From Rhodocyclaceae bacterium (lineage in GTDB: Bacteria; Pseudomonadota; Gammaproteobacteria; Burkholderiales; Rhodocyclaceae), in NCBI GenBank assembly GCA_013791905.1, contig VMSX01000011.1, forward strand, positions 186,001 through 250,000: 64,000 nucleotides of DNA, written 5' to 3'. Below the pieces are notes generated by a model. That model saw only the letters and a list, made by a program, of their open reading frames with translations, did not search any database and was not told the DNA's origin. The stretch's first letter is position 1. Each line of letters begins with the position of its first letter. Shown piece after piece: positions 1,273 through 55,468 of the stretch. A program made the translations under genes and the position numbers.

Positions 1273-1673
1273 TATTCAAAGGTGGAAGATCACCATAGGG
1301 GTGAAGCGGAAACGTCACAACAGTCTGCGACTGTGTATGTCCAGTTAACTGCTCATAGCCATCGGTATTTTTCGTGATATCACCAACCGCTCAGGCCAAC
1401 AAACCGTCACACATAACCCGCAATCGCCGTCCTGCCAGCGCCGACTTTTGAAGGCGGTTTGTCTCTCCCCGCCGAGCCACCGCGCAAGACAAGCGGCTGA
1501 TTCGGCCCACGCCCCGCGAGAGGTATATTGGGCGCTGATACGCGAAACGGGGGATGCCGCCATGTATTTCATCAGTTCCGCTACCTTCAGATTTCTCGAG
1601 CAGCTCGCCGACCACGGTAAATTGGGGCTGACCCAGATTACGCTCCGGTAAATGAAGGCAGGTGCCTTGAGCG
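1273..1673. other. 400-bp gap without an intact gene
   Basis: No convincing coding sequence lies here. It holds one copy of the 25-bp dispersed repeat (1425-1449) and short open frames with no family resemblance. It separates the nuclease-tailed gene from a broken glutathione transferase fragment, consistent with a decayed or rearranged spacer. Confidence 0.5.
1425..1449 (-). repeat. Dispersed 25-bp repeat, copy 1
   Basis: Read on the minus strand it contains AAAAGTCGGCGCTGGCAG followed by GACGGCG. It matches the family consensus AAAGTCGGCGCTGGCG + RGACGGCG with one change in the centre. No gene overlaps it. Confidence 0.85.
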
Positions 1674-19557: not shown

Positions 19558-19980
19558 ATGAAGCGTACCTCACTCATCATTTCTGCTTTGCTCGCCTTTT
19601 CAATGTCCGGCATCGCTGCGGCACAGACCGAGGCGTTTGTCAGTGTCACCAGTGCCGACAATCAATCGCAGGGCATGGCGATGGTTCTGGCGACACAGAT
19701 GGCTGAACAGAAAGCAGCCGTTCGCATTTTGCTCTGCGGCCCGGCCGGGCAACTGGCACTCAAGGCTTATGAGCCGGCAGCCCTCAAGCCACGCAATGTG
19801 ACACCCAAGCAGATGATGCAGAATCTGGTCAAGAATGGCGCAACGGTAGAAGTCTGCGCACTGTTCCTGCCCAATTTCGATCGCACGCCGGCCGACCTGA
19901 TCGAAGGCGTGGCGGTCGCCAAACCTGCTGATGTCGCTTCATACATGCTGAAACCGGGCGTGCGGACGTTCGGCTTCTAA
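19558..19980 (+). CDS. Periplasmic DsrE-family protein
   Basis: A 140-residue protein with a signal peptide (MKRTSLIISALLAFSMSGIA, cleavage near AAAQ). The mature part resembles DsrE/DsrF-like folds: QKAAVRILLCGPAGQLALK, then KPRNVTPKQMMQNLVKNGA and VEVCALFLPN, with cysteines in the two positions common in secreted members. Cytosolic DsrE carries sulfur; the function of exported versions is not established. AAGGA lies upstream of the ATG at 19558. It stands alone between the cbb operon and lolA. Confidence 0.75.
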   Translation: MKRTSLIISALLAFSMSGIAAAQTEAFVSVTSADNQSQGMAMVLATQMAEQKAAVRILLCGPAGQLALKAYEPAALKPRNVTPKQMMQNLVKNGATVEVCALFLPNFDRTPADLIEGVAVAKPADVASYMLKPGVRTFGF

Positions 19981-33752: not shown

Positions 33753-33848
33753 GACTCAACAATAGGAGGGGCGGTGACAACAGAAAAAAACGGCAATACT
33801 CACCGTCGGGCTAAGCCTGCAGAATGCAGCAAGCCGAACCGATCCACG

Positions 33849-33862
33849 TTGACGCAGATCAA
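33849..33862. promoter_or_regulatory. FNR-type box TTGAC-N4-ATCAA between hemN and fnr
   Basis: TTGACGCAGATCAA lies in the divergent region. Toward hemN its spacing fits activation (-41.5, start 33814). Toward fnr it is only 31 bp before the chosen ATG, so it would repress fnr: negative autoregulation. Confidence 0.65.
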
Positions 33863-33892
33863 AGCCCCCATCATTCCATCCGGCATAAGTCG

Positions 33893-34630
33893 ATGCTCGC
33901 TCAGGTAATTCCTCTCTCCGTTCCCGAGTTGCGCGAGGCCTGCTCGCAATGCAACCTGCGCGAGTTGTGCCTGCCGATGGGCCTAAGCGGGAACGAACTC
34001 GACCAGCTCGACCAACTGGTCGAAGTGCGGCGACGCGTCCAGCGCGGCCAACACCTTTATCGTGGTAGCGATCCCTTCGAGGCTATCTACGCGATCAAGA
34101 CCGGCTTTTTCAAGACCGATGTGTTGCTTGAAGATGGCCGCGATCAGGTCACTGGCTTCCAGATGGCGGGCGAGATACTGGGCATGGACGGCATCGGCTC
34201 GGAAAAGCACACCTGTAACGCCGTCGCACTGGAGGACAGCGAAGTCTGCGTCATCCCCTTTGCCGAGCTGGAACATTATTCGCGTGAAATCAGTGCACTA
34301 CAGCACCATTTTCACAAGATGATGAGCCGCGAAATTGTGCGTGACCATGGCGTAATGATGCTGCTGGGGGTGATGCGCGCCGAGGAGCGACTTGCTGCAT
34401 TTTTGCTGAACCTCTCACAACGCTTCACCGCGCGCGGCTATTCCCCTACCGAATTCAACCTGCGCATGACCCGCAACGAAATTGGCTCCTACCTCGGCCT
34501 CAAACTTGAAACCGTCAGCCGCGCCTTCTCGCGCTTTAACGAAGAAGGACTAATCTCCGTGCACCAGAAACACATCCGGATCCTCGACGCAGCTGGTCTG
34601 AAGAAACTGCTGTCCCAACGGCGAGCCTGA
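33893..34630 (+). CDS. fnr: FNR-type oxygen-sensing transcription regulator
   Basis: A 245-residue Crp-family protein. An N-terminal CSQCNLRELC (Cys 17, 20, 26) and a fourth Cys in HTCNAV (Cys 108) can hold the oxygen-labile [4Fe-4S] cluster. The helix-turn-helix NEIGSYLGLKLETVSRAFSR has the E..SR recognition residues that read TTGAT half-sites. The ATG at 33893 is used, since an upstream TTG would place the FNR-type site inside the gene. It probably controls the boxes listed in this window. Confidence 0.92.
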   Translation: MLAQVIPLSVPELREACSQCNLRELCLPMGLSGNELDQLDQLVEVRRRVQRGQHLYRGSDPFEAIYAIKTGFFKTDVLLEDGRDQVTGFQMAGEILGMDGIGSEKHTCNAVALEDSEVCVIPFAELEHYSREISALQHHFHKMMSREIVRDHGVMMLLGVMRAEERLAAFLLNLSQRFTARGYSPTEFNLRMTRNEIGSYLGLKLETVSRAFSRFNEEGLISVHQKHIRILDAAGLKKLLSQRRA

Positions 34631-37252: not shown

Positions 37253-37580
37253 GGAGTGGACTGGTTTTTACCCATTTTATTTTTATGGGTATTTATCTGT
37301 ATTTCGTGGTATTCGCCGTATGATGAATCGCCAACACAAACACTCTGAACCACATTGATTTTACGTAATTTATTCCATTCAGCCCGGAAATCTTCATACC
37401 TATTTTGAGGTAGTAGCCAGGCGAAAGTGAAGCTTGCCCAGTCTTTCGTCATCCCTTATTGGGGTCTAGCATGAAGGGAAATCAGCGGTTAGGCACCTTA
37501 CTGCCAGTCTGCACATTACTCAGATAAAAACCGGCTTGGCACTCGATAGCAAACAAGCATTCGTTTCCGGAAACCATCGC
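37253..37580. other. Divergent gap between narX and a Dnr-type regulator gene
   Basis: About 330 A+T-rich bases. Besides NarL-like heptamers I find no clear FNR box and no gene. It must hold promoters for both divergent genes. Confidence 0.45.
37269..37291 (-). promoter_or_regulatory. Possible NarL heptamer pair upstream of narX
   Basis: TACCCAT (37269-37275) and its inverse ATGGGTA (37285-37291) match the NarL heptamer TACYYMT, separated by 9 bp. A further TACCTAT is at 37397-37403. The arrangement is not the canonical 7-2-7, so this is tentative; it would allow autoregulation of narXL. Confidence 0.35.
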
Positions 37581-38420
37581 ATGCCCCAAAATACCGAAAA
37601 TCGCGTCGACACCGCAAAATTATTGGCACGCATGCCGCTGTTCGATGGGTTGCCGCAAGGACAGACGGCCCTCCTCGCGGCACACTCTAGGGGAATGCAT
37701 CTAAGCAGGGGCGAAATGCTGTTCCAGAAGGGCGATGTCGCAAACGGGTTTTACCTTGTCGTCTATGGACAGGTCAAACTCGCCTTCCCCTCATTCAGTG
37801 GCAACGAAAAAGTCGTCGACGTTATTGGGCCGAACCAGAGTTTCGGCGAAGCGGTGATGCTTGCCCAGCGCACCTATCCGGTGTTCGCCCAAGCGATCAT
37901 GGATACCTTGCTTATCCATGTCACCAGGGATGTCGTCTTCGATCTGCTGGAAAACGCCCCCTCCTTCGCCCGCCGCATGTTGATCGGCCTCGCGATGCAC
38001 AATCATTCGCTCGTCCATGACATCGAATCCTTCACACTGCGCTCAAGCGCCCAGCGCGTGATCGACTATCTGCTGCAGCTTTGCCCGAGCGACGGTAACT
38101 GCGAAGGCCGCATCGATATCATCCTGCCGACTTCGAAACAAATCACCGCTTCGCGCCTCAACCTGACGCCGGAAACCCTGTCGCGCATCCTCCACGACCT
38201 GGCAGAAGCCGGACTGATCGAGGTGCAGGGCAAGCGCATCTCGATCAGCAACCCCCAACGCCTGCGCGTCACGCTTGCTGCCACACACATGGACGAGAGC
38301 CACTCTGAAACATCCCGGCCACGTGCGCCTAAACGCACACTGGCTGTCGCGCCAGCCAAAACCCGCGCGAATATCCGCTGTGCCAAAACCAGGAAGCCGA
38401 TCACCGAACTGTGGGCCTGA
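37581..38420 (+). CDS. Crp/FNR-family regulator, Dnr-like (first paralogue)
   Basis: A 279-residue regulator without the FNR cysteine set. The cyclic-nucleotide-type domain has GFYLVVYGQVKLAFPSFSGN and VDVIGPNQSFGEAVM, as in Dnr/NnrR-type sensors of nitric oxide that use haem. The helix-turn-helix is ITASRLNLTPETLSRILHDL. A basic ~45-residue tail (RAPKRTLAVAPAKTRANIR...) is extra compared with the second paralogue at 38978. The ATG at 37581 is preferred over a TTG 45 bp upstream. NO sensing is inference from family and from neighbours narXL and hemerythrins. Confidence 0.82.
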   Translation: MPQNTENRVDTAKLLARMPLFDGLPQGQTALLAAHSRGMHLSRGEMLFQKGDVANGFYLVVYGQVKLAFPSFSGNEKVVDVIGPNQSFGEAVMLAQRTYPVFAQAIMDTLLIHVTRDVVFDLLENAPSFARRMLIGLAMHNHSLVHDIESFTLRSSAQRVIDYLLQLCPSDGNCEGRIDIILPTSKQITASRLNLTPETLSRILHDLAEAGLIEVQGKRISISNPQRLRVTLAATHMDESHSETSRPRAPKRTLAVAPAKTRANIRCAKTRKPITELWA

Positions 38421-38874: not shown

Positions 38875-38977
38875 AAATTAGCGTTATCCAGTAAAAAGAA
38901 TGATAAGGTTGCGCCCCATTCAGAGGCGACCCATGGGTGCCCACTGTCCGCACTTCTATCTTTCCGTTCGTTCAATT

Positions 38978-39685
38978 ATGTCCCAACAACAGGAAAACCA
39001 TATCGACATTCCGGCGTTTTTGATACGCCAGTCCCTGTTTCAGGAACTGACACCCGAGCAGGTGACGCACCTCGCTGCGCATGCCCGGGAGAAACGTCTG
39101 GCGGCGGGCGAAATGCTGCTGCAGAAGGGCGATAACCCACGTGGGTTTTACATCATCATCTTCGGTCAGATCAAACTGGCCTTCCCCTCCGCTACCGGCA
39201 ATGAAAAAGTGGTCGATATTCTCGGGCCACGGCAAAGTTTTGGCGAAACGGTAATGTTCATCGACCGCCCCTACCCGGTGTTCGCCGAGGCCATCACCGC
39301 TACGCAATTGCTGCACGTCAGCAAGGATGCGATTTTCGAACTGCTTGAAACCGACCCTTCCTTCGCCCGGCGGATGTTGGCCAGCATGTCCATGCGTCTG
39401 CACGCACTGATGCGCGACGTCGAATCCTATTCCTTGCGATCCAGTGCCCAGCGCGTCATTGGTTACCTGCTGCAACATTGCCCGAACCAGGGTAACGGCA
39501 CTTGCGCGGGCAGCGTCGAAATCACCCTGCCCACTTCCAAGCAGATCATAGCGTCGCGGCTCAATCTGACACCTGAAACCTTGTCACGCATTTTCCGCGA
39601 TCTCGCCGAAGCGAAATTGATCAGCGTGCAGTCCCGGCGCGTCACCATCAACGATTTCAAGCGGCTGCGCGAATACGATTTTTGA
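38978..39685 (+). CDS. Crp/FNR-family regulator, Dnr-like (second paralogue)
   Basis: A 235-residue regulator similar throughout to the protein at 37581, for example GFYIIIFGQIKLAFPSATGN, VDILGPRQSFGETVM, and the reading helix IIASRLNLTPETLSRIFRDL. It lacks FNR-type cysteines and the basic tail. It probably binds the same TTGAY-N4-RTCAA class of site and senses NO through haem, by analogy with Dnr. Its 3' end overlaps the convergent 12-TM protein gene by 29 bp. No FNR box was found in its own upstream region. Confidence 0.82.
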   Translation: MSQQQENHIDIPAFLIRQSLFQELTPEQVTHLAAHAREKRLAAGEMLLQKGDNPRGFYIIIFGQIKLAFPSATGNEKVVDILGPRQSFGETVMFIDRPYPVFAEAITATQLLHVSKDAIFELLETDPSFARRMLASMSMRLHALMRDVESYSLRSSAQRVIGYLLQHCPNQGNGTCAGSVEITLPTSKQIIASRLNLTPETLSRIFRDLAEAKLISVQSRRVTINDFKRLREYDF

Positions 39686-46555: not shown

Positions 46556-46569
46556 TTGATCTGCGTCAA
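46556..46569. promoter_or_regulatory. FNR-type box TTGAT-N4-GTCAA between phaC and uspA
   Basis: TTGATCTGCGTCAA lies 35 bp before the uspA start, too close for class II activation of uspA. Read toward phaC, -41.5 spacing would give a start at 46521 with -10 CACAAT. It is identical over 14 bases to the site at 52693. Direction is unresolved. Confidence 0.55.
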
Positions 46570-46603: not shown

Positions 46604-47047
46604 ATGTTCAAACACATTCTCGTTCCGACTGATGGCTCACAACTTTCGACTGAAGCGGTGAAACGGGCAGTCGGATTTGCTGCCGAGTCGGGTGCGCAAA
46701 TCACCTTTTTCTACGCCAAGCCCGAATATCCGATAGCCTTTTTCGGCGAGGGTGCCCTGATTGATCCGACGAGTCCCGAGAAATTCGCCGAAATGGCTGA
46801 CAAGCAGGCCAAAAAAATACTTGGCGCCTGCGAGAAGCTTGCGCAGGAGAACAAGGTCAAGAGCTCGTCACTTGCCGTGACCAGCGATATTCCTTTCGAG
46901 GCTGTCATCGCAGGGGCGGATACCGCCGGTTGCGACCTTATCTTCATGGCATCCCATGGGCGGCGCGGCTTCAGCGGTTTGTTGCTGGGTTCCGAAACGC
47001 AAAAGGTGCTAACGCACTCGAAGATCCCGGTGCTGGTTTATCGTTAA
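46604..47047 (+). CDS. Universal stress protein UspA family
   Basis: A 147-residue protein. FKHILVPTDGSQLSTEAVKR begins the fold, and the C-terminal ATP-binding signature MASHGRRGFSGLLLGSETQK (GxxG-x9-G(S/T)) is complete. GGAGGG precedes the ATG at 46604. The location among FNR-box genes suggests induction at low oxygen, as known for Usp proteins in other bacteria. It ends four bases inside the convergent ccoH gene. Confidence 0.9.
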   Translation: MFKHILVPTDGSQLSTEAVKRAVGFAAESGAQITFFYAKPEYPIAFFGEGALIDPTSPEKFAEMADKQAKKILGACEKLAQENKVKSSSLAVTSDIPFEAVIAGADTAGCDLIFMASHGRRGFSGLLLGSETQKVLTHSKIPVLVYR

Positions 47048-50961: not shown

Positions 50962-52386
50962 TCAGTGGGCGTGGGCGGGTGCGAGGACGGGTGCGTCATC
51001 GACCGCGCGACCAGAGGCGATGGTCTTGTACATGTTGTACGCCATGAGGCACATGCCGGTAAGGAACAGCACCCCACCCACGACGCGAATCGTCCAGAAC
51101 GGATAAGAGGCCTTGACGGATTCAACGAAGGAGTAGGTCAGAGTGCCGTCCGCATTGGTGGCGCGCCACATCAGGCCCTGCATCACGCCAGAAATCCATA
51201 GTGCGGCGATGTACAGAACCGTGCCGAGCGTAGCCAACCAGAAATGCACGTTGATCAGCTTGACGGAAAACATCTCGGGCTTGCCGAACAGGCGCGGGAG
51301 CAGATAGTAGATCGAACCGATGGAAATCATCGCGACCCAACCCAGCGCACCGGAGTGAACATGACCAACCGTCCAGTCAGTGTAATGCGACAGCGCATTC
51401 ACCGTCTTGATCGACATCATCGGCCCTTCAAAGGTGGACATGCCGTAGAAGGATAGCGAGGTGATCATGAACTTGAGGATCGGGTCATCACGCAGTTTGT
51501 GCCAGGCGCCGGACAGCGTCATGATGCCGTTGATCATGCCGCCCCATGAGGGCGCCAGCAGAATCAGCGAGAAGACCATGCCGACCGACTGCGTCCAGTC
51601 GGGCAACGCGGTGTAGTGCAGATGGTGCGGGCCCGCCCACATGTAGGTGAAGATCAGCGCCCAGAAATGCACCACCGACAGTCGGTAGGAATAGATTGGG
51701 CGTTCGGCCTGTTTCGGCACGAAGTAATACATCATGCCGAGGAAGGCCGCCGTCAGGAAGAAGCCCACCGCGTTATGGCCGTACCACCACTGGATCATGG
51801 CATCCTGCACGCCGGCATAAGCAGAGTAGGACTTGGTCAGGGTGACGGGGATCGCCGCGCTGTTGAAGATGTGCAACAGGGCGACGGCGATGATGAAGGC
51901 GCCGTAAAACCAGTTGGCCACATAAATGTGCGGGGTCTTGCGGGTGCCGATGGTGCCGAAGAACACCACGGCGTAGGCCACCCAGATCAGGGTGATCAGG
52001 ATGTCGATCGGCCACTCGAGTTCGGCGTACTCTTTGCCCTGGGTGAAGCCCAGTGGCAGCGTTATCGCCGCCAGAACGATGACGATTTGCCAGCCCCAAA
52101 AGATGAAAGTTGCCAGGCCAGGTGCAAATAGCGTGGTGTGGCAGGTGCGCTGCACCACGTAAAAGGAAGTGGCGAACAGTGCGCAACCGCCGAACGCGAA
52201 AATAACCGCGTTGGTATGCAGCGGCCGCAGCCTTCCATACGACAGCCACTCAGCGGCGTTCAATTCCGGCCAGACCAACTGGGCGGCAATGATGACCCCG
52301 ACCAGCATACCGACGATGCCCCAGATAACGGTCATCACGGCGAACTGGCGCACGACTTTGTAGTTGTAAGTCGCTTGCGATTGCAT
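50962..52386 (-). CDS. ccoN: Cytochrome cbb3 oxidase catalytic subunit I
   Basis: A 474-residue, 12-helix haem-copper oxidase subunit reducing O2 with high affinity. Histidine ligands appear in [43 protein letters not shown] and [15 protein letters not shown]. The ATG at 52386 is favoured since GGGGAGG lies upstream; a GTG four codons earlier overlaps that ribosome site. An FNR box about 100 bp upstream fits class II activation. Confidence 0.95.
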
Positions 52387-52485
52387 GATGGTGTTCACCT
52401 CCCCTTAAATAAACAGACTACCACCCTCTCCACGGCCTACCCGTGGAAGCCGGACGTAACATACTCGACCACGAAAGCACGTATT

Positions 52486-52499
52486 TTGATTCAAATCAA
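52486..52499 (-). promoter_or_regulatory. FNR-type box TTGAT-N4-ATCAA upstream of ccoN
   Basis: A perfect palindrome, TTGATTCAAATCAA. Its centre (52492.5) is 41.5 bp from a predicted start at 52451, with -10 TATGTT (52463-52458), 65 nt before the ccoN ATG. FNR control of ccoNOQP is well known in other proteobacteria. Confidence 0.78.
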
Positions 52500-52563
52500 C
52501 TTTACCGGCTGACATGATAACTTATGATGCCATTAAATCCACAATTTATTTGTGGATTTAGGC

Positions 52564-52592
52564 AAAAAAAAGGGGTGCGCGTCGCGCACCCC
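52564..52592 (-). terminator. Intrinsic terminator between ccoS and ccoN
   Basis: A perfect 9-bp stem GGGGTGCGC / GCGCACCCC with a 3-nt loop is followed on the minus strand by eight T residues (52571-52564): a textbook terminator. Confidence 0.9.
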
Positions 52593-52658
52593 CAACCCCA
52601 ACAGAGAGACTAACCGATGAAACGAATCGCCCATTACTGCGAACCATCCGAAACAAAC
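52564..52658 (-). ncRNA. Candidate FNR-activated small RNA (~95 nt)
   Basis: On the minus strand, an FNR-type box (52706-52693), a TATAGT -10 (52670-52665) and an intrinsic terminator (52592-52564) are arranged to produce a free transcript of about 95 nt. The box centre is exactly 41.5 bp before the start predicted from the -10 (52658). No open reading frame of note is enclosed. By analogy, FnrS of enterobacteria and AniS of Neisseria are FNR-activated sRNAs; I claim only the architecture, not sequence homology. The alternative is that the terminator simply serves the ccoI-ccoS transcript. Confidence 0.5.
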
Positions 52659-52692
52659 GCGCGGACTATAGACCTTACGATTGACATAGGCA

Positions 52693-52706
52693 TTGATCTG
52701 CGTCAA
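52693..52706 (-). promoter_or_regulatory. FNR-type box TTGAT-N4-GTCAA downstream of ccoS
   Basis: TTGATCTGCGTCAA starts six bases beyond the ccoS stop. Its position fits activation of a minus-strand transcript starting at 52658, not of ccoN, because a terminator intervenes. Confidence 0.65.
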
Positions 52707-52711
52707 CAGAT

Positions 52712-52903
52712 TCACTGGCTAGGCTTGGAATCCTCATCAACAGAGGGCTTCTCGTCTTGGTGACGGTCATCATCCATCAACACACGATAAGCCGGCCCCT
52801 CCAGATCATCCATCTGACCACTCTTCAACGACCACCAAAAGATCACGCCGATCACGAAGACCAGTACAACCGAAAAAGGGATCAGCAAATAGAGACTTTC
52901 CAT
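52712..52903 (-). CDS. ccoS: Cytochrome cbb3 assembly protein CcoS
   Basis: A 63-residue protein: one membrane helix (LYLLIPFSVVLVFVIGVIFW) followed by WSLKSGQMDDLEGPAYRVL, the CcoS signature. It is needed for cofactor insertion into cbb3 oxidase. It follows ccoI on the same strand, separated by a ~90-bp palindromic repeat. Confidence 0.9.
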   Translation of the reverse strand: MESLYLLIPFSVVLVFVIGVIFWWSLKSGQMDDLEGPAYRVLMDDDRHQDEKPSVDEDSKPSQ

Positions 52904-52912
52904 TTAGGCTCT

Positions 52913-52997
52913 CTCAAGAAACACGCCGGGCCTCCCCATGTATTTATTGGCCCCTTGAGGGGAGAACGACGCGCAGCGACGTTTTCGTGAGTGGGCT
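52913..52997 (+). repeat. GC-rich palindromic element between ccoI and ccoS
   Basis: It starts CTCAAGAAACACGCCGGGCC, then TCCCC, GGCCCCTTGAGGGG and GCAGCGACGTTTTCG. It aligns with the element inside nadE (minus strand of 26788-26873) over its full length, at roughly three quarters identity by eye. It ends at the ccoI stop codon. Confidence 0.75.
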
Positions 52998-55468
52998 CAA
53001 AGCTTCCGCGACAAAGGCTGTGGCATTTTTTTTTGCAAGCGCAGGGCATTCATCACCACCAGCAATGAACTGGCCGACATGCCGATACCGGCCATCCAAG
53101 GGGTGACCCAACCCGCCATGGCCAATGGTATCGCCGTAATGTTGTAAGCGAAAGACCAAGCCAGATTTTGCCGGATGATGGATAAGGTGCGGCGCGCCAG
53201 AACAGCGCCATTGACGAGATGCGCCAGATCGTCCGACAACAATATCACGTCGGCCTGACCACGGGCCAGATCGGTACCCCCGCCCATCGCGATCGATACA
53301 TGCGCCTGCGCCAGCACGGGGGCATCATTCACCCCGTCTCCGACCATCGCGACGGTTTCGCCGCGCGCCTGCATTTCGCTCAGATAAGCATGCTTCCCCT
53401 CCGGGGTCATGCCGCCACGGAAGTGGTCGATGCCCAGTTCCGCAGCCACCGCCGCGACCGTCTCGGGCGCATCGCCCGAGAGAATGGTCAGTTGCAGCCC
53501 CTGTGCGCGCATTGCGCCGAGTGCTGCGGCCGCGCCCGGACGCAAGGCATCGGCAATGCGGAACCAGGCCAGCCAGCCCGTCGTATCGCCCAGTGCCACC
53601 ACGGTGTCGCCAGCGTGCAGCCAGCCAGCCATTTCCTGCGGCAGCGGCACGCCATGCAACTCGGCGACGAATGACGGCACGCCAATCCTTGCCTTGCGCG
53701 AGCCGTCGGCATGGTTCAGTTGCGCCTCGATGCCCTGCCCCGTCAGCGCTCTGAGCCCCGTCATCGACGCCGTCTCGCCAGCGCCGACTTTCTCCAGCAA
53801 GGCACGCCCGAGCGGATGTTCCGACGCACGCTCAAGCGCACGTACCAGTGCAAAGACTTCCGCTGTGTTTGCCGCAGCGTCAAGCTGCAGCGCCACCACC
53901 GTCGGTCGGCCGACCGTCAGCGTGCCGGTCTTGTCGAAAATCCAGTGATTGGCGCGGGCCAGCGTCTCAATGGCATGACCGCGCGTGACCAGCACACCTT
54001 CGCGCGCCAGCGCGCCCGTCGCCACGGTCAGCGCCGTTGGGGTTGCCAGCGCAAGCGCGCAGGGACAGCTCACCACCAACACGGCGACAAACACCCAGAG
54101 CGCCTGATCGGGGTTGGTATTCAGCCAGTACAGCCCCGTCACCGTAGCCAGCGCGAGCAGCACCCAGACAAAGTGAAAGGCAATGCGGTCGGCCAGCAAT
54201 ACCAGCGCGGGCTTTTCCGCCGCGGCCTGCTCCATCAGCCGGCGAATCGACGCCAGGCGCGTCGCCTCGCCCACTCGCGCCAGACGTACCACCAGCGGAC
54301 TCGATACATTCACGCTACCGCCGATCACCACGTCGCCCGGCTGCTTGGCGCGTGGCCGACTTTCGCCCGTCAGCAGCGATTCGTCGCAGCTGCTCGCGCC
54401 ATCGATCACCTCACCGTCGCCGGGAATCACCTCGCCCGGCCGCACCAGCACACAATCGCCTGAGCAAAGATTAACCACCGCCACCCGTTCACCATCACGC
54501 ACCGGCCATTGCGGCAAGCGCTCGGCGAAAGCTGGCAGCGCTCGCGCTAACTCCTCGACGCCGCGCGCTGCCTTCTGTCGCGCCATCATTTCCAGATAGC
54601 GCCCCGTCAGCAGGAAAAACACGAACATCGTCACTGCATCGAAATACACCTCGCCAGTCGCCATCAAGGTCGCCCAGACGCTGGCGGCAAAGGCGCTGCC
54701 CATGCCAAGCGCCACCGGCACATCCATGCCCACCCGCCGGAAGCGCAGATCGCGCCAGGCATTCGCAAAGAATGGCGCGGAGGAATAGGCCATCACCGGC
54801 ACGGTCAGCAGCAGGCTCGCCCAGCGCATCAATTGCTCGATGTCCGCAGTCATATCCCCGTCGGCAAGGTAGGCCGGTAATGCATACATCATTACCTGCA
54901 TCATGCCGAAACCGGCAACGAACAGGCGCCACTGCGCGGTGCGGCGCTCTTTCAGGGCCAACTGCTCGGAGCGGGTGACATCGTAGGGATGGGCGCGATA
55001 ACCGATGGCCTGAATGGCCTCGAGCAGCGCCGAGAGTTTGGTGAGCCGCTCGTCCCAGCGCACCCGCGCGCGGCGCGTCGCGTAGTTGATATCCACCGCC
55101 GTCACGCCCGGCTGGCGGGCGAGATGCGCTTCGTTGAGCCAGACGCAGGCCGCGCAGGTGATGCCTTCGAGAATCAACGCCGCCTCGCGCTCGTGCTCAT
55201 TCACCGGGCGCACGAAATTCTTCTGCACCTCGGGATGGTCGAACAGCCCCAGTTCCTGCAAAGCCTGTGGCATGGCTTCGCGCTGGCTTTCCGGCATAGC
55301 GTCGCGATGCCGGTAATAATCCGTCAGCTGGTTGGCGACAATCGCCTGCGCCACGGCCTGGCAACCGGCGCAACACATCTGACGTGGCACCTTGTCAATC
55401 TCGACATGCCAGTCGGCACCTGCCGGCAGCGGCAGGCCGCAGTGATAACAACTGTCAGTTGAGGTCAA
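52997..55468 (-). CDS. ccoI: Copper P-type ATPase CcoI/FixI for cbb3 oxidase assembly
   Basis: An 823-residue ATPase. An N-terminal cysteine-rich segment (CYHCGLPLP, CCAGCQAV), an HMA domain (GITCAACVW), LTGES, the membrane site SCPCALALATPTALT, DKTGTLTVG, the HP motif SEHPLGRAL and GDGVNDAPVLA identify a P1B copper pump of the CtpA/FixI type. Just after the HP motif is KVGAGETA (about residues 559-566), encoded by the dispersed repeat. The start is TTG at 55468, directly after the stop of the SDR gene. Confidence 0.93.
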   Translation of the reverse strand: MTSTDSCYHCGLPLPAGADWHVEIDKVPRQMCCAGCQAVAQAIVANQLTDYYRHRDAMPESQREAMPQALQELGLFDHPEVQKNFVRPVNEHEREAALILEGITCAACVWLNEAHLARQPGVTAVDINYATRRARVRWDERLTKLSALLEAIQAIGYRAHPYDVTRSEQLALKERRTAQWRLFVAGFGMMQVMMYALPAYLADGDMTADIEQLMRWASLLLTVPVMAYSSAPFFANAWRDLRFRRVGMDVPVALGMGSAFAASVWATLMATGEVYFDAVTMFVFFLLTGRYLEMMARQKAARGVEELARALPAFAERLPQWPVRDGERVAVVNLCSGDCVLVRPGEVIPGDGEVIDGASSCDESLLTGESRPRAKQPGDVVIGGSVNVSSPLVVRLARVGEATRLASIRRLMEQAAAEKPALVLLADRIAFHFVWVLLALATVTGLYWLNTNPDQALWVFVAVLVVSCPCALALATPTALTVATGALAREGVLVTRGHAIETLARANHWIFDKTGTLTVGRPTVVALQLDAAANTAEVFALVRALERASEHPLGRALLEKVGAGETASMTGLRALTGQGIEAQLNHADGSRKARIGVPSFVAELHGVPLPQEMAGWLHAGDTVVALGDTTGWLAWFRIADALRPGAAAALGAMRAQGLQLTILSGDAPETVAAVAAELGIDHFRGGMTPEGKHAYLSEMQARGETVAMVGDGVNDAPVLAQAHVSIAMGGGTDLARGQADVILLSDDLAHLVNGAVLARRTLSIIRQNLAWSFAYNITAIPLAMAGWVTPWMAGIGMSASSLLVVMNALRLQKKMPQPLSRKL
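53768..53792 (-). repeat. Dispersed 25-bp repeat, copy in ccoI
   Basis: The coding strand reads GAAAGTCGGCGCTGGCGAGA CGGCG, giving KVGAGETA about 8 residues after the HP motif, a different position from the copA copy. Confidence 0.85.

Follow-up and report, generated by a model that had tools for sequence, protein, structure and literature searches.

A putative sRNA gene between ccoS and ccoN

The region under study lies on the minus strand of the window (the whole 64-kb stretch of DNA that was analysed), between ccoS and ccoN, the gene for subunit I of the cbb3 oxidase. Read 5′ to 3′, its letters contain an FNR box, a −10 element, the segment for an RNA of about 95 nt and an intrinsic terminator (Table 1). 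The listed start of ccoN is a GTG; the ATG of MQSQ..., 12 bases further, is equally likely. An earlier note on this DNA had proposed an FNR-activated small RNA on the strength of a box, the hexamer TATAGT and a GC stem followed by eight T. All of these are present, the box having been quoted there as TTGATCTGCGTCAA, the reverse complement of TTGACGCAGATCAA.

The centre of the sRNA box falls at 52699.5. From there it is 34.5 bp to the final base of the −10 and 41.5 bp to the predicted start at 52658. The class II FNR geometry described in the note is thus confirmed on the sequence, as is a product of about 95 nt (52658 to 52564). Some 65 nt would be transcribed between the predicted start and the terminator stem, to which the last G's of the seed UCUCUCUGUUGGGGUUGGGG, from 52593 on, already belong. 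Among 8 terminator-like sites in the interval 51000–54000, that of the sRNA has the most pairs (10). The sRNA promoter went unreported in a plain sigma-70 scan, which is no surprise if it relies on an activator and lacks a −35 element. As the note had it, ccoN possesses a box of its own, followed by a possible −10, TATGTT, read by eye at 52463–52458.

The window contains 7 perfect FNR boxes (TTGAYNNNNRTCAA), where shuffled sequence would lead one to expect 0.16, so that the sRNA box and the ccoN box are unlikely to be there by chance. The same organism encodes an Fnr of the Fe-S type: the predicted protein scores above the NF008365 cut-off and holds the motif CSQCNLRELC plus a later HTC, whose cysteines resemble the known Fe-S ligands.

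Table 1. Features of the sRNA locus, its neighbours, the predicted activator and the candidate target.
Feature	Position	Strand	Basis
FNR box of the sRNA promoter, TTGACGCAGATCAA	52693-52706	-	sequence; over-representation compared with shuffles; loci of relatives
-10 element TATAGT	52665-52670	-	sequence; spacing kept in relatives
Predicted sRNA, about 95 nt; 5′ domain variable, 3′ half conserved	52564-52658	-	sequence, alignment, covariance model, fold
Conserved seed UCUCUCUGUUGGGGUUGGGG, complementary to ribosome-binding sites of predicted targets	52590-52609	-	alignment, pairing
Invariant core of 14 nt, UCUCUGUUGGGGUU	52594-52607	-	invariant in 38 sequences
Intrinsic terminator: 10-bp GC stem 52593-52584/52580-52571, eight T 52571-52564	52564-52593	-	sequence, fold, paired changes
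ccoS; stop codon 52714-52712, end 5 bp before the sRNA FNR box	52712-52903	-	TIGR00847, 71.2 bits against 28.35
ccoN, cbb3 oxidase subunit I	50962-52398	-	TIGR00780, 785.6 bits against 583.15
Separate FNR box of ccoN, TTGATTTGAATCAA	52486-52499	-	sequence, box scan
fnr, predicted activator	33824-34630	+	NF008365, 245.2 bits against a cut-off of 228
Own TusE/DsrC-family gene	G000:C4:340459-340785	-	leader pairing

The RNA is conserved within the family

When 221 bases around the site were used as a DNA query, 29 of 61 genomes matched, the genome of origin included. All belonged to the same family (29/37), and elsewhere in the order the count was 0/24. In most relatives the stretch that matched was the 3′ half of the RNA, and neither ccoS nor the promoter. 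Alignment of 38 distinct sequences showed UCUCUGUUGGGGUU to be invariant and the terminator arms nearly so; the loop was free, and the tip of the terminator stem varied with it.

From this alignment a covariance model of 55 positions, R1, was built. Within the family it matched 197 of 249 genomes at E≤0.01, spread over 55 of 68 genera, and 187 at E≤1e-10, leaving 62 genomes with no match at the latter threshold. In searches of this size stricter filters are applied, by which weak matches can be lost, and this holds for the following counts: 56 of 399 genomes of the order matched at E≤0.01 and 15 at E≤1e-10, these 15 being 13 from this family and 2 from other families (G429 and G448), and among 369 genomes of the class 8 matched at E≤1e-5, with only this genome below 2e-7. 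The distant hits outside the family, with E from 1e-7 to 1e-2, are presumed to be chance terminators; two of them, L153 and L154, had neither a perfect FNR box nor the seed. When the best 80 of 593 loci nearest to this CcoN, from named genomes, were inspected, 13 carried the core and 67 did not. Candidatus Accumulibacter, Denitromonas and Dechloromonas are among the carriers, and no core was found beside ccoN at the Thauera phenolivorans locus (L038). At one locus (L003, G010:C113, core at 1460–1532, minus strand) the seed unit UUGGGG is present in five tandem copies, like a telomere repeat.

Promoter geometry and gene order in relatives

Promoter geometry was scored at 61 distinct loci brought in by the RNA itself, the best-scoring among the matches, with a −10 defined by an A at position 2 and a T at position 6. 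This −10 rule alone is lenient; the strong part of the result is the perfect box at a fixed spacing. The arrangement of box, −10 and terminator, whose conservation the earlier note had made one of the tests of its proposal, is kept at 59 of the 61 loci. There, the box is a perfect 14/14, and the distance from its centre to the −10 is 34.5 bp in 45 cases and 33.5 bp in 14. Gene order is kept to the same extent, with ccoN downstream in 59/61 and ccoS upstream in 59/61. At L001–L003 the box already lay within the DNA match; without these three, both elements are present at 56 of 58 loci. When loci found through CcoN are included, the figure becomes 68 of all 70 distinct loci, at 33.5, 34.5 or 35.5 bp, and the commonest −10 is CATACT (27/68).

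Two loci depart from this scheme. L129 has the box and a CATACT at the usual spacing, but 212 nt upstream of the core. At L135 (G069) the FNR box lies 749 nt upstream of the core with an extra ORF between them, and the RNA there would therefore be a 3′-UTR product. This ORF ends in ...LLSVGVGYRF, which by eye looks like an outer-membrane protein, and the core follows it directly. Of the two loci without ccoN, one (L016) runs to the end of its contig, and at the other (L018) no ccoN is seen over some 1.1 kb.

In the relatives, the distance from −10 to core ranges from 25 to 74 nt with no common frame. A formal ORF of 60 aa that spans the sRNA region in the window is consequently not a conserved coding sequence, and the view that no gene precedes the terminator was upheld. 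Box, −10 and a terminator with no gene before it, as expected of a class II FNR-activated sRNA, were thus all found. Taking these observations together, the element is very probably the gene of an FNR-controlled sRNA.

Predicted structure

The predicted fold of the RNA (52658–52565) has an energy of −31.9 kcal/mol, with a z of −2.14 against dinucleotide shuffles, and consists of a stem-loop at the 5′ end, a middle part of weak structure and the terminator. Paired changes in the terminator stem amounted to 27 cells; shuffles gave 12.1, and sliding the stem gave no more than 5. They fall in the upper stem, at 3 of 10 pairs, and 95.8% of the cells are paired. Within the seed, the probability of being unpaired is 0.76–0.98 for UGUU and 0.23–0.68 for UCUC, which is about half open. 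The four free G's of the seed reach 0.05–0.38, being mostly engaged in a weak local hairpin, and the G's that come after them make up the 5′ arm of the terminator. The tail of eight U would be compatible with Hfq dependence.

Relation to known sRNAs

To our knowledge, few sRNAs under the control of FNR or its homologues have been described, namely FnrS, AniS and PhrS. PhrS of Pseudomonas is activated by ANR, an FNR homologue, which makes it similar in this respect to the predicted RNA; it was absent from the Rfam matches, an absence that counts only if Rfam has a PhrS model. FnrS represses genes of aerobic life. In Escherichia coli and other enterobacteria, FNR activates it from a class II site whose centre is at −41.5 (sections of PMC3032703), as would be the case here. 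The two RNAs differ in seed and predicted targets, SodC being no general target of the new RNA. The gonococcal FnrS combines a class II FNR site with a 5′ stem-loop, an unstructured stretch and a terminator (sections of PMC3032703 and PMC4423775), and AniS of the meningococcus is annotated as NMB1205 (section of PMC4423775). Both are, like the RNA predicted here, FNR-dependent sRNAs from Betaproteobacteria, whereas in sequence the new RNA stays below the Rfam threshold for AniS.

No Rfam family matched the RNA at its gathering threshold. The AniS model (RF02274) gave 16.5 bits when 50 are needed, and it was chiefly the terminator that agreed; FnrS was not among the matches at E≤10. SorY (RF02651, 21.9 bits against 111) and SorX (RF02784, 17.5 against 46.6) did not reach their gathering scores either. 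A 103-base search gave a weak full-length alignment with these two at 52565–52650 of the minus strand (E of 0.0071 and 0.026, respectively). They share with the new RNA a CUCnCUGUUGG placed before a GC-rich terminator, and differ from it in belonging, by name, to the singlet-oxygen response; we see no evidence that a common descent would account for the likeness. S17S of Bordetella pertussis is a conserved betaproteobacterial sRNA, reported from Aromatoleum as well, that targets ribosome-binding sites; S17 has a glycosyltransferase gene on one side and coq7 on the other, and it follows the state of Bvg (sections of PMC11722255). By this description S17S is set apart by another location and another regulator. 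The Burkholderia ‘toxic sRNAs’ (RF02278) were not among the Rfam matches.

Membership in AniS, FnrS and SorX/SorY is therefore ruled out by the Rfam thresholds. The analogy with FnrS and AniS drawn in the earlier note stands for function and promoter type, and fails for sequence membership. We conclude that the RNA probably represents a new sRNA family that works like FnrS and AniS and is a sequence member of neither. In the open-licence literature, no report was recognised as describing the present RNA, and the DNA string TCTCTGTTGGGG was met only under unrelated titles.

The TusE/DsrC leader as predicted target

Candidate targets were looked for as a seed complement, CCAACAGAGA, followed by an ATG within 2–13 nt. 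The pattern had 60 matches in 121 family genomes, 10 of them on the antisense strand of the sRNA itself, against 12 for the reversed pattern. The longest complements were found before genes of the TusE/DsrC family, before one of the DsrE family and an unassigned gene resembling it (L226, L224), and before a desaturase/ferritin-like gene (L185). With a TusE/DsrC query, 32 of the 121 genomes gave a hit at E≤1e-15, and 21 of these genes are of the close type (L236–L256, one per genome, by a chosen cut).

Pairing energies were compared with a null of 385 gene starts, chosen by a simple start rule in the window and in 20 stretches sampled from this genome, the TusE/DsrC locus being deliberately included. 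With a seed of 25 nt, the null had a mean of −18.2 (sd 4.1), and the organism's own TusE/DsrC leader ranked 1/385, at −34.2 kcal/mol against −28.1 for the next. Bearing in mind that both TusE/DsrC and Lipoprotein_15 (see below) are families found through the seed, the 19 TusE/DsrC orthologues from genomes with the sRNA had a mean of −34.9 kcal/mol, with 16 of 19 below −28.1; once the three that the seed pattern had picked up were set aside, 13 of 16 leaders remained below this value. On the same 19 leaders, 500 shuffled seeds averaged −17.4 (lowest mean −26.7), shuffled leaders averaged −16.9 and the reversed seed gave −24.8. The two genomes that have the gene and no sRNA match gave −24.0 (G035) and −23.6 (G106), and nine more distant DsrC genes ranged from −14.8 to −29.1, one being below −28.1. 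In three genomes with the sRNA (G066, G091 and G128) the TusE/DsrC leaders were weak.

The seed of 25 nt takes in five G's of the terminator stem, and one of 20 nt stops before the stem. With 20 nt, the own leader (−21.1) fell to rank 5/385, the lowest other start being at −23.9. The 19 orthologues then had a mean of −22.6, with 10 below the 1% point of the null (−21.2) and 6 below its lowest value. As a set they still lay beyond all 500 shuffled 20-nt seeds (average −11.1, lowest −18.9). The search for sRNA targets suggested in the earlier note thus singles out TusE/DsrC with the longer seed and places it only fifth with the shorter one. Since the ranking falls without the terminator-arm G's, less confidence attaches to the targets than to the RNA itself. 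For an sRNA that pairs with ribosome-binding sites the picture is divided: the pairing is as expected at 25 nt and weaker at 20 nt, and in the predicted fold the seed is unpaired only in part.

In many genera the pairing overlaps the Shine-Dalgarno sequence, or ribosome-binding site, of the TusE/DsrC leader, and should for that reason block initiation. We lean towards the TusE/DsrC leader being a true target, and in the species that possess the gene it is probably the best supported one.

An IscR-like site at the predicted target

Upstream of the TusE/DsrC starts lies a palindrome that resembles an IscR type 1 site, scored against the consensus of such sites. Of the 21 loci (L236–L256), 19 could be oriented, and their best scores were 18–23 of 25; the palindromes overlap the presumed promoter. 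Among 383 gene starts sampled from this genome, the highest score was 18. The organism's own copy, with a score of only 18, is at the edge of this null, so that control by IscR would be a lead for the relatives.

Other candidate targets

Lipoprotein_15 may be a second, weaker target in other genera. With the 25-nt seed, 18 of 30 leaders were below −28.1 (17 of 29 without the query); with the 20-nt seed, 8 of 30 were below the 1% point and 4 of 30 below the lowest null value. The longer seed let through 2 of 3 leaders from genomes with no sRNA match, compared with 16 of 27 from genomes with one, and as leaders pass without the sRNA too, the gene gives no presence/absence support. No Lipoprotein_15 hit was obtained in the own genome at E≤1e-15.

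SodC had been considered because of a 15-nt perfect match in one genome (G114) and by the logic of FnrS; as a general target it was rejected, only 2 of 30 leaders passing, one of which was the query. A DsrE-like gene was likewise rejected as a general target and kept as a lineage-specific possibility only: 4 of 27 distinct leaders passed (3 of 26 without the query), the rows being 30 in all since L392–L394 repeat the genes of L374, L381 and L378. The DsrE-like gene of the window (19558–19980) gave −18.0, with no site.

In the own genome, a long perfect complement before a start was found on the antisense strand of the sRNA alone, two other places having 3 mismatches. The short pattern had 13 matches at 10 places, one of them the sRNA antisense, against 1 for the reversed pattern. 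Two of these places precede convincing genes, one encoding a DctP solute-binding protein (L177), the other a Tll0287-like protein (L178).

Proposed function and alternatives

The element, its conservation, the geometry of its promoter and the complementarity of seed and leaders, controls included, are computed results. They make it quite probable that 52658–52564 of the minus strand specifies a trans-acting sRNA of a new family, activated by Fnr and blocking ribosome-binding sites, with TusE/DsrC as its best target. At low oxygen, Fnr would bind the box at −41.5 and activate RNA polymerase at the adjacent −10, as at a class II promoter. Transcription would end at the intrinsic terminator and yield an RNA of about 95 nt, separate from ccoS and ccoN. 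The segment UCUCUCUGUUGGGGUUGGGG would pair with CCCCAACCCCAACAGAGAG-like leaders overlapping the Shine-Dalgarno sequence, and translation would be blocked. The target would be a gene of the sulfur relay, of the TusE/DsrC family, whose promoter has an IscR-type-1-like site in most of the relatives examined. For transcription, its dependence on Fnr, the help of a chaperone (e.g. Hfq) and repression as the outcome, we infer what the sequence suggests. Our best guess for the function is translational repression, under oxygen limitation, of the TusE/DsrC gene where it is present and of lineage-dependent genes.

Such an sRNA would add a post-transcriptional arm to the low-oxygen shift, with a specific candidate target in the sulfur relay. 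It would form an sRNA family of its own, carried by most of the genomes searched in a family of soil and wastewater bacteria, relatives of wastewater organisms among them. The same design as in FnrS and AniS (a class II FNR box and an RNA of about 100 nt with a terminator) in the absence of sequence kinship would suggest that an sRNA for oxygen limitation is a recurrent solution. More tentatively, one may picture an oxygen/sulfur switch in the Rhodocyclaceae that bear the gene, in which Fnr, through an sRNA expressed from the cbb3 locus, shuts off translation of TusE/DsrC while the promoter of this gene is under IscR, and in which the seed is fixed by serving several leaders. If this were true, two Fe-S-based regulators would meet on one sulfur-trafficking gene, and the seed would be held constant across the family by several leaders (TusE/DsrC, Lipoprotein_15 and lineage-specific ones).

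A rather unlikely alternative, which has the most in its favour, is that the RNA is real and activated by FNR and acts mainly elsewhere, on other mRNAs or by binding a protein through its G-rich UUGGGGUUGGGG. A close TusE/DsrC gene is found in only 21 of 121 family genomes, yet the RNA is present in most genomes of the family; because the RNA is so much commoner than the gene, other targets must exist. The loss of target support without the terminator-arm G's and the expansion of UUGGGG to five copies at L003 point in the same direction, as do perfect complements of 15 nt which, in single genomes, precede SodC-, YceI- and transporter-like genes (by eye) and a flavodoxin-like gene (Pfam). Against this, the TusE/DsrC leaders as a set out-pair all 500 shuffled seeds at either seed length, and in many genera the pairing covers their ribosome-binding site.

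A terminator just 3′ of ccoS and on the same strand could also serve the operon alone: reads would run from ccoS into the hairpin, the box would be a leftover or an upstream control site of ccoN, and there would be no regulatory RNA. An RNA processed from a 3′ UTR needs no promoter of its own, and at L135 the core directly follows another ORF. A terminator, however, needs no fixed upstream sequence, yet UCUCUGUUGGGGUU is invariant in the 38 sequences, unlike the tip of the stem and the loop. In addition, the perfect box at class II spacing recurs at 59 of 61 loci, and in this genome it comes on top of the separate ccoN box. We regard this explanation as very improbable.

That the region encodes a short protein, in the open frame of 60 aa that starts at GTG 52715, is hardly conceivable, as this frame would begin upstream of the FNR box, the lengths of the 5′ part differ among relatives by non-multiples of three, and the conserved part includes the terminator. 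An Fnr-activated sRNA thus remains the preferred reading of the locus.

Other FNR boxes and Crp/Fnr-type regulators in the window

A perfect FNR box with letters identical to those of the sRNA box lies at 33849–33862 (plus strand), inside the 5′ end of fnr as listed. It is likely to lie upstream of the real, internal start of fnr, and Fnr may thus be autoregulated. Another perfect box (TTGATCTGCGTCAA), at 46556–46569, is found shortly before an ORF at 46604–47047 (plus strand), presumably for a universal-stress-protein-like product, judging from its sequence. Two further regulators of the Crp/Fnr type are encoded near fnr, at 37536–38417 and 38900–39682 (plus strand), their closest NCBIfam model being FtrB, below its cut-off; either of them might also read FNR-type boxes.
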